A stretch of DNA of 64,000 bases from Flavihumibacter fluvii. GTDB taxonomy: Bacteria > Bacteroidota > Bacteroidia > Chitinophagales > Chitinophagaceae. The stretch covers positions 2,256,001 to 2,320,000 of the forward strand of contig NZ_CP092333.1 in assembly GCF_018595675.2 (NCBI RefSeq), read 5' to 3'. The translations under genes and the position numbers were made by a program. Below are positions 22,313 through 25,390 of this stretch, in pieces; the first letter of the stretch is position 1, and each line of letters begins with the position of its first letter. A model generated the notes under the pieces. That model was not told where the DNA came from. It was given only the letters and a program-made list of their open reading frames with translations, and made no database searches.

Positions 22313-22325
22313 TAAACACCGTTCA
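22313..22325. promoter_or_regulatory. Second copy of the TetR operator-like site, before the TolC-like gene
   Basis: TAAACACCGTTCA matches the palindrome TGAACAGTGTTCA at 22991-23003 in 10 of 13 positions. It lies 31 bases before the start of the TolC-like gene, in the 62-base gap after tetR. The match and position suggest the regulator controls both promoters. This is inferred from sequence similarity. Confidence 0.5.
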
Positions 22326-22343: not shown

Positions 22344-22961
22344 TCACATTTTCTCCAGCATGGCTAAGAAGTATCTATAGCCATTTTCCATCAGTTCGGT
22401 TGGTTCCAATCCTTCTTCGTGATAAGCCTTACAACGGTCGCGGCAAAACAGGGCACTCATCCCATGCATGGCAGACCAGATAGTAAAGGACAGGTAATTG
22501 ATATCCATACCTTTGAAATGGCCGATATCCTGGCATTGCCGCAATACATTTTTTAGGAATTCAAGGGTTTGGTGGCCCATCATCCATTTTTCCTGGTCCT
22601 TTTCAGAATCGATGGGCGACTGCATGATGAACATGAGGTCATAAAAATCCTTGTTATTCCAGGCAAAGTCAAGGTAAACTGACCCAATCGCCTTCAGGCG
22701 CTCAAATGGGTTAGACACATGTTGTAATGGCTTCATTTTTTCCAGTAACCGCCGGAAACCTTCTTCATGGAGGGAATGGAATATTTCGTCCTTGTCCTTG
22801 AAATATAGGTAAATGGTACCTGGACTGTACTCGATCTGCTCAGCTATATTGCGGATACTGGCTTCATAATAACCTTTCTCCAGGAATATCTTCCGGGCAG
22901 CGTCAAGGATCAGCGTCCGCATCTCTTCTTTTTCTCTTTGCTTCCGGTTGGCGATGGTCAT
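22344..22961 (-). CDS. TetR/AcrR family transcriptional regulator of the efflux operon
   Basis: A 205-aa regulator with an N-terminal helix-turn-helix at about residues 25-60 (IRNIAEQIEYSPGTIYLYFKD, preceded by the DAARKIFLEKGYYEASI helix) and a variable ligand-binding C-terminal domain. It probably represses the efflux operon that follows it on the same strand (TolC-like, adaptor, RND pump) until an inducer binds. The C-terminal region carries DIGHFKGMDINYLSFTIWSAMHG, resembling TetR_C-type dimer domains. Its own promoter contains a perfect palindrome (22991-23003), so it should regulate itself. Confidence 0.9.
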   Translation of the reverse strand: MTIANRKQREKEEMRTLILDAARKIFLEKGYYEASIRNIAEQIEYSPGTIYLYFKDKDEIFHSLHEEGFRRLLEKMKPLQHVSNPFERLKAIGSVYLDFAWNNKDFYDLMFIMQSPIDSEKDQEKWMMGHQTLEFLKNVLRQCQDIGHFKGMDINYLSFTIWSAMHGMSALFCRDRCKAYHEEGLEPTELMENGYRYFLAMLEKM

Positions 22962-22981
22962 GTTTAACTACTATTCGAAAA

Positions 22982-23012
22982 CAAAATTAATGAACAGTGT
23001 TCAGTAAACAAA
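22982..23012 (-). promoter_or_regulatory. tetR promoter, consensus Bacteroidetes type
   Basis: On the minus strand: TTTG (23012-23009), 19 bases, then TAATTTTG (22989-22982). This is an exact match to TTTG-N19-TAnnTTTG. The operator palindrome is located in the spacer, so binding of the regulator would cover both promoter elements. Confidence 0.8.
22991..23003. promoter_or_regulatory. Predicted TetR operator palindrome
   Basis: TGAACAGTGTTCA is a perfect inverted repeat (TGAAC-N3-GTTCA) centred in the 19-base spacer of the tetR promoter. A related copy is at 22313-22325. Confidence 0.7.
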
Positions 23013-23043
23013 TTTTATTACAATAATTTTTGAACTATTTTTA
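23013..23043 (+). promoter_or_regulatory. Possible promoter of the fluoride riboswitch transcript
   Basis: TTTT, 19 bases, then TATTTTTA (23036-23043) approximates the Bacteroidetes consensus. It would start transcription a few bases before the riboswitch aptamer at 23051. Two elements deviate by one base each. Confidence 0.35.
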
Positions 23044-23050
23044 ATTCTAA

Positions 23051-23148
23051 GGAAATGGTGTCTTCCTATTCAACCGTTCTTTTTTACAAGAGCTGATGGC
23101 GCCTACAAATACAAACACCTGGCATGTAGTCTTTAACTCATTTGTAGG
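23051..23148 (+). ncRNA. Fluoride riboswitch (crcB motif) with translational expression platform
   Basis: The aptamer is 23051-23106. P1 stem GGAA (23051-23054) pairs with TTCC (23063-23066). The loop ATGGTGTC holds GGTGTC, which forms a six-pair pseudoknot with GGCGCC (23098-23103). The conserved AACCG follows (23072-23076), and GTTCTT (23076-23081) forms a hairpin with AAGAGC (23087-23092). The conserved 3' end is TGATGGCGCCTAC. This layout matches the known fluoride aptamer closely. Expression platform: CCTACAAAT (23102-23110) is perfectly complementary over nine bases to ATTTGTAGG (23140-23148), which abuts the ATG at 23149. Without fluoride, this stem would hide the ribosome site; ligand-bound aptamer keeps CCTAC in the aptamer and frees it, turning translation on. 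The mechanism is inference from pairing. Confidence 0.9.
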
Positions 23149-24432
23149 ATGAACAAACCAAAATATTCCCCTGAACAGTATTTTGTTGCCCGCCAGTTGC
23201 TACGCTGGACAATTCTGATCCTGCCTGTATCGGTGGTGATCGGATGCCTGGTGGCCCTGTTTTTATGGCTTCTTGATTGGGCAACAGCTACCCGGTGGGC
23301 AAATATATGGCTGGTGTTTTTATTGCCCTTAGCCGGTTTACTGATCTATTGGCTGTACACTACCTGGGGGAAAAATACTGGTGCTGGTAATAACCTGATC
23401 ATCGATGAAATCCACCAGCCAGGCGGGGGTATACCAGCCAGGATGGCTCCCTTAATACTGGCTACTACCATCATTACCCATTTATTTGGTGGATCAGCAG
23501 GCCGGGAAGGAACAGCGGTACAAATGGGCGGCAGCATCGCTGCATTGTTCTCACGCTGGTATAAACTTCACCATGAGCAAAAAAGGATCCTGTTAATGTG
23601 TGGCATGTCAGCAGGATTTGGGGCAGTTTTCGGAACACCTGTCGCCGGGGCTGTATTTGCATTGGAAGTGTTAACCATTGGGCGGATCAAATACGACGCA
23701 TTGATCCCCTGCCTCATCGCCAGCCTGATCGCAGATATCACCTGCAGAACTACCGGTATCCAACATACGCAGTATCATATCAGTGGAATTTCCGGGCCGA
23801 ACAAATATTTACCTTTCATTGCATTCGATGTCATTTTATTATTCAAGATTATTCTTGCCGGTTCGCTGTTTGGATTGGCCTCCTATTTCTTTGCAAAATT
23901 ATCACAAACCATAAAAAGTAAAAGCCAGCAATATATTCCAAAACCATGGATGGTACCATTCATTGGAGCCTTGCTGGTGATTGCCATAAGCTATGGCCTG
24001 GGTAGCTTTGATTACCTGGGACTAGGTGTAACCAATCCAGAAAGTGGTATTAGCATCACCAGCGCATTTTCAGTGAATGGTGCCAGCCACTTCAGTTGGT
24101 TTTGGAAACTCCTGCTGACAGCTATCACACTTGGTACGGGTTTTAAGGGCGGTGAAGTAACTCCATTATTTTTTATTGGAGCCACACTTGGCAATACACT
24201 GGCGATGCTGAGCGGGTCACCCGTTGACCTCTTTGCGGGCCTTGGTTTTATTGCAGTATTTGCCGGTGCAACAAATACCCCGATTGCCTGTACCCTGATG
24301 GGCATTGAGCTGTTTGGCGGGGAGCATACCATTTATTTTGCTGTAGCCTGTTTTACCGCCTATTATTTTAGTGGGCACACCGGCATTTACCATGCTCAAA
24401 AGACGGCTATAAAAAAACTGGACCCGCAATGA
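23149..24432 (+). CDS. CLC-family transporter, probable fluoride/proton antiporter (CLC-F)
   Basis: A 427-aa CLC protein with about 14 hydrophobic segments. Fingerprints: [13 protein letters not shown] (helix C-D region) in place of the chloride-type [13 protein letters not shown] (gating Glu120, Thr instead of the usual Pro), [23 protein letters not shown] and [15 protein letters not shown] in place of GxFxP. The lost pore serine (Asn81, 39 residues before the gating Glu), GREGT and EVTP are features I associate with the fluoride-selective CLC-F branch. The fluoride riboswitch directly upstream supports this strongly. The role would be export of toxic fluoride from the cytoplasm. The stop overlaps the start of the decayed phosphodiesterase gene (ATGA), formerly translationally coupled. 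Confidence 0.9.
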
Positions 24433-25390
24433 GAAAATTATTGGCAATTGGATGCCTGTTTCTTTTGGCACCTGTCAAAAGAGCAACCGCACAAAAGGTT
24501 TCTGTCCATTCATTTAAAGTGATACCACTTGGTGTAAAAGGCAAATGGATGAACGTAATCTTTCAGCTTACCTGGTCGCAGCTGGCGGTTCCCAGGATTA
24601 TATATATCTGAATGCTGGCACCATTAAGTATGGTGTCCAACAGGCTATTCTGAACCATAGCCTAAGTGGGGATGCTGGAGCCTTTCTCCATCAAGATATC
24701 AAAAGTTACCTTATTTCGCATGCGCACCTTGACCATATTTCCGGTTTAATATTGAATTCACCCAATGATAGAACTAAAAAATATTTATGCTTTAACGCCG
24801 GTTATCGCCATTTTACAATCACCTTATTTTACCTGGAAAAGTTAGGCAGACTTCTGTAATGAGGGATAAGCGCCTGCACTCAATAAATACCACGATACAT
24901 ATTTAGCAGAAGAGCAGGCTACTCATCTGGTAAATACCAACCTCACAGTTAAACCTTTTGCATTAAGCCATAGCCATCATTACCAATGCAGTGCCTTCCT
25001 TATTGAAAATGACCACGCACAAATGCTTTACCTGGGCGATACTGGTCCGGACAGCCTGGAACATACCGGAAACCTGGAACACTTGTAACAGACTGTTGCA
25101 CCACTGGTAAAACAAAATACTTTGAAGGCGATCTTTATTGAAGTTTCGTTTCCGGATGAGCAACCCGATCAGCAGTTGTTCGGTCATCTTACACCGCAAT
25201 GGCTGATGCAGGAAATGGATAAACTATCCGACCTGGCTGGGAAAGAAAGCTTAAAAGCAGTTAAAATTTTCATCACGATATCACGCCCGGAAAAAATAGG
25301 GAAGAACAAATCAGGGAGCAACTAAAGCACCACAACACCACTGGATTGCAATTACTATTTCCGCTGCAGGGAATACCAATTGAGTTCTAA
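24429..25390 (+). pseudogene. Decayed class II cyclic-nucleotide phosphodiesterase (MBL fold)
   Basis: The gene starts at ATG 24429 overlapping the CLC stop, with a signal peptide (LLAIGCLFLLAPVKRATA). Fragments in different frames spell a class II 3',5'-cyclic-nucleotide phosphodiesterase: ERNLSAYLVAAG, the metal motif SHAHLDHISGL, LYLGDTGPDS and FIEVSFPDEQPDQQLFGHL. The frame changes near 24540, between 24840 and 24906, and near 25285, and there is an in-frame TAA at 25086-25088. At least three frameshifts and one nonsense codon exclude a functional enzyme. The original protein would have hydrolysed cAMP-type signals in the periplasm. Gene ends at TAA 25388-25390. Confidence 0.85.

Follow-up and report, generated by a model that had tools for sequence, protein, structure and literature searches.

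A fluoride riboswitch aptamer in Flavihumibacter fluvii (Chitinophagaceae) probably belongs to a translational ON switch that has no need of a Shine-Dalgarno (SD) sequence. It lies in a window of 64,000 nucleotides (contig NZ_CP092333.1, positions 2,256,001 to 2,320,000), which is the whole stretch of DNA that was analysed and to which all coordinates below refer; the riboswitch features and the gene behind them are on its forward strand. Computation revealed an aptamer, a helix between its tail and the start region of the downstream CLC gene that covaries among relatives, the position of this helix at the start codon, the absence of T-runs of the terminator type and a scarcity of SD-like motifs. 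Matching changes retained on both sides of the helix suggest, from comparison of sequences, that fluoride turns on translation of the CLC gene.

In the proposed mechanism, the aptamer tail (23102-23110) would leave the pseudoknot when fluoride is absent and pair with nucleotides 23140-23148. The resulting 9-bp helix, or clamp, would end one base before the AUG, such that the 30S subunit could not load and little exporter would be made. Fluoride binding would stabilize the docked pseudoknot, which would retain the CC and UAC of the tail and thus open the clamp. The start region would then become single-stranded and the CLC-F gene would be translated. Ribosome exclusion, ON polarity and mutually exclusive formation of the two folds are predicted features of this design.

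A complete fluoride aptamer precedes a CLC-F-type gene

A cmscan search with Rfam yielded a match to RF01734 at 23042-23112 that spans the whole model (positions 1-64) and scores 49.0 bits against a cut-off of 34 (E 1.5e-10). The alignment places P1, P3 and the conserved joining letters in order, with no non-standard pair marked. Specifically, the P1 hairpin GGAA/TTCC (23051-23054/23063-23066) carries the 5′ pseudoknot strand GGTGTC in its loop (23057-23062), and the conserved joining letters AACCG (23072-23076) end in a G that also opens the P3 hairpin GTTC/GAGC (23076-23079/23090-23093). The 3′ pseudoknot strand GGCGCC (23098-23103) can pair with GGUGUC through a duplex of −7.1 kcal/mol that includes two G-U pairs.

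The original prediction, made from the letters of the window, had listed these aptamer elements with correct letters and coordinates, and the covariance-model search that it proposed gave a significant score rather than the lack of one that it had named as contrary evidence. The match begins 9 nt 5′ of the start proposed there (23051). At the level of sequence, these results confirm a genuine fluoride riboswitch aptamer, for which fluoride binding itself is predicted. It is the sole RF01734 match in the 5.0-Mb genome, and the motif is patchy in the genus (2 of 15 genomes).

The gene that starts 36 nt after the end of the RF01734 match (23149-24432) encodes a protein of 427 aa that matches Pfam Voltage_CLC (E 8.7e-75). 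Among proteins of solved structure, it is closest to the CLC-type fluoride/proton antiporters 6d0j (E 3.3e-63), 6d0k and 6d0n, with E values from 3e-63 to 4e-62, and the only other CLC protein among the PDB matches listed is 3nd0 (E 7e-08). The protein has the GREG motif region in common with 6d0j and differs in carrying GREGT where the solved protein has GREGV, and Asn (GNNLI) where the solved protein has Met (GMNLV). Residues in these motifs presumably define the CLC-F clade. By closeness to the solved CLC-F proteins, the regulated gene is assigned to the CLC-F type, and fluoride/proton exchange is its predicted activity. A genome search gave no match to crcB in this genome.

The aptamer tail is complementary to the bases that abut the start codon

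The aptamer tail CCTACAAAT (23102-23110) is complementary over 9 bp to ATTTGTAGG (23140-23148), whose last base occupies position −1 and adjoins the ATG at 23149. The clamp overlaps the pseudoknot by two C nucleotides, the final CC of its 3′ strand, and has a duplex energy of −9.3 kcal/mol as compared with −7.1 kcal/mol for the pseudoknot strands. Of 200 dinucleotide-shuffled versions of the 120 nt that follow, 1 pairs equally well. A loop of 29 nt (23111-23139), with a longest T-run of 3, separates the two arms.

This helix had been proposed as the alternative fold in the original prediction, with letters and coordinates that proved correct, as did the observation that the loop carries no T-run. 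The pairing exceeds chance at this locus and does so by far in the family, where covariation backs the helix. A second possible partner of the 3′ arm, absent from that prediction, is the P3 loop TTTTACAA (23082-23089), which is favoured in a fold of 129 nt.

The competing strand tracks the start codon across the family

Across the family, 130 of the 394 genomes searched carry a match to the riboswitch, which exceeds the cut-off in 122. For 133 matches above the cut-off, the last 11 nt of each aptamer were scored against the next 120 nt. An arm better than those in shuffled sequences is present in 114 of the 133 loci at p ≤0.05 and in 87 at p ≤0.01, and the other 19 have no arm that beats shuffles at p 0.05 within these 120 nt.

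According to a motif rule, a CLC-like gene follows the aptamer in 101 of 132 loci. With the start codon set to the first ATG of a long frame, a rule that over-calls some starts, 95 of these 101 CLC loci have an arm whose end lies 0-6 nt upstream of that ATG, 26 of them at 0 and 38 at 1 nt (64 at 0 or 1). Six CLC loci fall outside this range, with L050 at −1 and five at −24 to −74. Inspection by eye places the arm near a later ATG in L044, L110, L126 and L127 and near the ATG in L089. L087 has no arm within 120 nt yet carries a perfect arm further down that abuts its ATG. Of 80 named CLC relatives, a loose regular expression picks out an aptamer-like pattern upstream of 63. In 62 of these it is joined by a TGYRG-type arm that a second loose pattern places 0-6 nt ahead of an ATG. 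Many of the organisms are also present in the family set.

The clamp probably closes the start-codon region

Several observations bear on which element the clamp would mask. In the leader of the window locus, GTAGG abuts the ATG and there is no SD-like motif at the usual distance; with no SD sequence present, the masked part cannot be one and would be the stretch touching the start codon. SD-like motifs occur at −14 to −4 in 11 of 95 CLC loci of the family and in 3 of 37 long genes of the window, where 57% have A at −3. With the gap of 0 at the window locus, the A of the arm itself sits at −3. Ribosomes of Bacteroidia are reported not to recognize SD sequences (PMC9976891), and initiation in Flavobacterium johnsoniae is described as tuned by A at −3 and −6 as well as by RNA structure around the AUG (PMC6847099).

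Scans of 22940-23300 gave no intrinsic terminator, meaning a hairpin followed by a T-run, and a single promoter-like site for sigma-70, on the other strand. Runs of five or more T nucleotides within 12 nt after the arm are found in 0 of 95 CLC loci; 14 of the 95 have such a run elsewhere in the leader, none just after the arm. With no T-run, few SD-like motifs, ribosomes reported to be SD-blind and initiation tuned by the start region, the mechanism is therefore likely to be closure of the start-codon region and not SD masking.

A different reading, which we consider unlikely, is that the clamp acts mainly through transcription, either because Rho ends untranslated mRNA or because the helix terminates directly, such that fluoride would raise mRNA abundance and not the translation of each mRNA. 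Termination is the mechanism of the Bacillus cereus and Thermotoga petrophila fluoride riboswitches as described in PMC13273304, five loci in other classes of the phylum show by eye arms followed by T-runs, and coupling to Rho would be invisible in sequence. However, the leader has no terminator-like site, none of the 95 loci has a T-run just after the arm, and the arm stays within 0-6 nt of the AUG in 95 of 101, a constraint that termination would not need. Of the original prediction, the fluoride aptamer, the CLC target and the preference for translational over terminator control all stand.

Selection appears to act on the pairing itself

We consider it very improbable that the arm is kept for some other reason, as a site GTAGG for a protein or the ribosome or by conservation at the DNA level, with complementarity following from the CCTAC of the aptamer. 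Because CCTAC belongs to the aptamer consensus, any conserved GTAGG would pair with the tail, and the arm is indeed often nearly identical among loci. This possibility is disfavoured by the way in which arms follow their tails. The summed score of the 133 loci is 2665 with their own tails but 2061 (sd 36) once tails are exchanged, and the highest of 300 permutations reaches 2161. Restricting the exchange to one tail class gave a score as good as the real one in 0 of 300 permutations for CCTAC (68 loci), 1 of 300 for CCTGT (16 loci) and 0 of 300 for CCTGC (36 loci).

Covariation was assessed in 77 of 80 dereplicated CLC loci, aligned by sequence and not by complementarity; L044, L110 and L127 were dropped, as their stretches end before the arm. 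The covariation score of the clamp is 0.260 versus 0.136 in shuffles, which ignore relatedness, and 0 of 500 shuffles reach it. When the partners are slid by 1-3 columns, the score falls to 0.063-0.101. Paired cells amount to 85.3% versus 77.8% in shuffles, and 71 cells are changed on both sides versus 30.9. A further measure, the number of pairs changed on both sides, is 8 versus 6.2 in shuffles; it is not distinctive, because 45 of 500 shuffles are as high.

The arm has followed the tail at pairs 4, 5 and 6. Pair 4 is A-U in 45 of the 77 loci, G-C in 21 and G-U in 11; pair 5 is C-G in 70, A-U in 5 and G-U in 2; and pair 6 is A-U in 63, U-A in 7, G-U in 4 and unpaired in 3. The two outermost pairs fail in 30 and 40 of the 77 loci. 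We read this pattern as probable selection on the pairing of about the inner nine bases.

Folding models support closure in the free RNA

When 60 nt of coding sequence are included, each pair of the tail clamp forms with a probability of 0.81-0.95 in the unconstrained ensemble. On the other side, the free start region (openness 0.317) is only the 8th least open of 37 genes of the window (median 0.516), and the total folding energy is ordinary (z −0.31). Over eight 3′ ends, nucleotides −10 to −1 are unpaired with a probability of 0.13-0.26 in the free RNA versus 0.29-0.52 in the docked model. The segment is therefore mostly paired when unconstrained, and accessibility in all low-energy structures, which the original prediction had named as an outcome against it, was not seen.

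The AUG triplet behaves differently from the bases preceding it: for each of the eight lengths, the docked model predicts it to be no more open than the free RNA does, and mostly less open (with 60 nt of coding sequence, 0.94 free versus 0.34 docked). Blocking the tail in 126 family loci raises the mean openness of −10 to +3 only from 0.31 to 0.43, with a gain above 0.2 in 39 loci and a loss above 0.05 in 15, some of the starts being over-called. Thus, these models favour closure without fluoride and do not show a clean opening. The earlier proposal that fluoride frees the ribosome site is supported as a translational ON reading; it does not hold for an SD site, as none is present, and the docked model lacks a cleanly open AUG.

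The fold of 129 nt pairs the arm with the P3 loop and not with the tail, whereas longer RNA pairs the arm with the tail; because they disagree on the partner, single folds are weak evidence. Least probable of the alternatives is that the arm of the free RNA pairs with the P3 loop, opening the aptamer via P3 and leaving the start region closed or poorly open either way. In its favour, this partner is preferred by the 129-nt fold and the AUG is partly paired in the docked model; against it, the tail clamp prevails once 60 nt of coding sequence are included and the covariation measured is with the tail.

A coding-sequence form of the clamp in crcB genes

Where a riboswitch is linked to crcB, its tail is complementary to the first bases of the gene, as in the pairing of tail CCTGTACAT with ATGTACAGG. 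Loci of this kind number 14. They are what is left of 19 family loci in which the aptamer is followed by crcB or an apparent remnant of it, once five had been set aside: L027, L048 and L063, where crcB lies behind an arm and a short frame, and L056 and L104, where by eye an intact crcB was not recognized. Codon 3 is AGG in register with the tail (AUG-NNN-AGG) in 12 of the 14, the exceptions being L057 and L113. Among these 12, L018 has two internal mismatches and L039 and L047 have one each; L011 is cut by a contig end, and the L039 gene reads as broken, with two stops inside the match.

A crcB match was found in 128 genomes of the family set. Controls came from 70 family loci, of which 64 were retained after three without a resolved start and three linked to a riboswitch were dropped. 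AGG occupies codon 3 in 5 of these 64 unlinked genes, or in 6 if the ambiguous L349 is added, an enrichment with Fisher p 1e-8 (3e-8 with L349) when kinship among the 12 is ignored.

We rejected the idea that the RNA imposes a basic residue at position 3 of CrcB, given that Lys or Arg is found there in 37 of the 64 unlinked proteins and that only the AGG codon is enriched. Because these residues are common without the switch, the RNA seems to choose the codon and not the residue.

Some loci near this group have other layouts. In L027, L048, L063 and L120, a very short frame (M-K-stop in L027) or an apparent remnant of a CLC start comes after the arm, and in the first three crcB lies behind and may have replaced a CLC gene while keeping the switch. 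In family f46 (L145, L155, L159, L160, L184, L188 and L191), the crcB ATG lies 5-14 nt beyond the aptamer and no arm precedes it; the strongest complement falls within the coding sequence, as GGTAGGA does in L159.

Other forms of the switch in Bacteroidota

Searches at the level of class and of phylum each matched 55 of 395 genomes, both samples including family members, and 70 further loci were inspected by eye. Arms end 5-7 nt before the ATG in f23 and 1-2 nt before it in some f41 loci and one of the two f30 loci, and no convincing upstream arm was seen in the f46 loci and several others. Outside the class, the tail in four of five f90 loci and in the one f99 locus pairs with a GGAG-type stretch a few nucleotides before the ATG, which is an SD-like form; the five loci with arms followed by T-runs, a terminator-like form, belong to f81, f93 and f107.

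We mildly favour the view that Bacteroidia rebuilt the switch for ribosomes that ignore SD sequences, moving the masking strand to the start codon from a terminator or SD form such as other classes of the phylum show. In crcB, this strand would have become the coding AUG-NNN-AGG, where one stretch of RNA serves as start codon, codons 2-3 and switch and thereby fixes the codon of residue 3.

Relation to known riboswitches

The fluoride riboswitches of Pseudomonas syringae and Burkholderia pseudomallei are assumed to mask an SD sequence; the window locus has none, and the bases touching the start codon would be masked instead. Both of these are presented as translational controls without termination in PMC13273304, and in this respect they resemble the switch proposed here. 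The transcriptional riboswitch of B. cereus is built on the same RF01734 aptamer and likewise has ON logic by exchange of the 3′ strand of the pseudoknot (PMC13273304), but the window locus lacks a terminator and its competing strand ends at the AUG. This strand overlaps two pseudoknot bases and the following UAC, as compared with the six pseudoknot nucleotides given there for B. cereus and T. petrophila.

The same paper tested 1901 fluoride riboswitches in transcription and built a covariation model of the terminator form; ‘Bacteroid’ is absent from its main text. Because Bacteroides TPP riboswitches that regulate transcription or translation have been described (Costliow, Degnan and Vanderpool, preprint 2019, as cited in PMC7366714), translational riboswitches in the phylum are not new as such. 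These TPP riboswitches are alike in exerting translational control in an SD-poor group and differ in ligand, aptamer and genes. We recognized no description of fluoride expression platforms in Bacteroidota among the matches listed in searches of a largely open-access literature. The aptamer class is thus known, and, as far as our searches show, the covarying clamp next to the start codon, together with its coding version in crcB, constitutes an undescribed variant.

Riboswitch gating of translation by SD-blind ribosomes is little documented in the literature searched. The loci described above provide start-codon clamps as a natural series: they are short, they covary and they share one aptamer, and related classes have SD-like and terminator-like counterparts. 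With this series it can be tested directly which element has to be masked in order to halt a ribosome that does not use SD sequences. Compact parts for fluoride-inducible expression in Bacteroidota may also come from it.

Additional loci and neighbouring genes

Several genomes carry a further riboswitch before a transporter of 393-407 aa (L059, L065, L074, L083 and L100), identified in L059 as MFS_1 (E 1e-42). Of these five, L100 alone has a clear clamp arm; the MFS-like loci L059, L065, L074 and L083 have no trusted arm in the next 120 nt.

CLC proteins of Verrucomicrobiota (Opitutales and kin; L218, L224, L225, L226, L228, L233, L237, L245 and L249) are 67-71% identical to that of the window. 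A loose regular expression detected no aptamer-like pattern upstream of these genes, perhaps reflecting gene transfer without the riboswitch.

Within the window, an inverted repeat TGAACAGTGTTCA at 22991-23003 lies between a divergent tetR-family gene (22344-22961) and the riboswitch. It could plausibly serve as a TetR operator and might reach into the CLC promoter too. A weaker copy is located at 22313-22325, and the match count is not above chance. Behind the CLC gene, a frame whose ATG overlaps the CLC stop is followed by a match to class-II cAMP phosphodiesterase in another stretch (24545-24859), and the region as a whole (24429-24859) looks like a broken gene.
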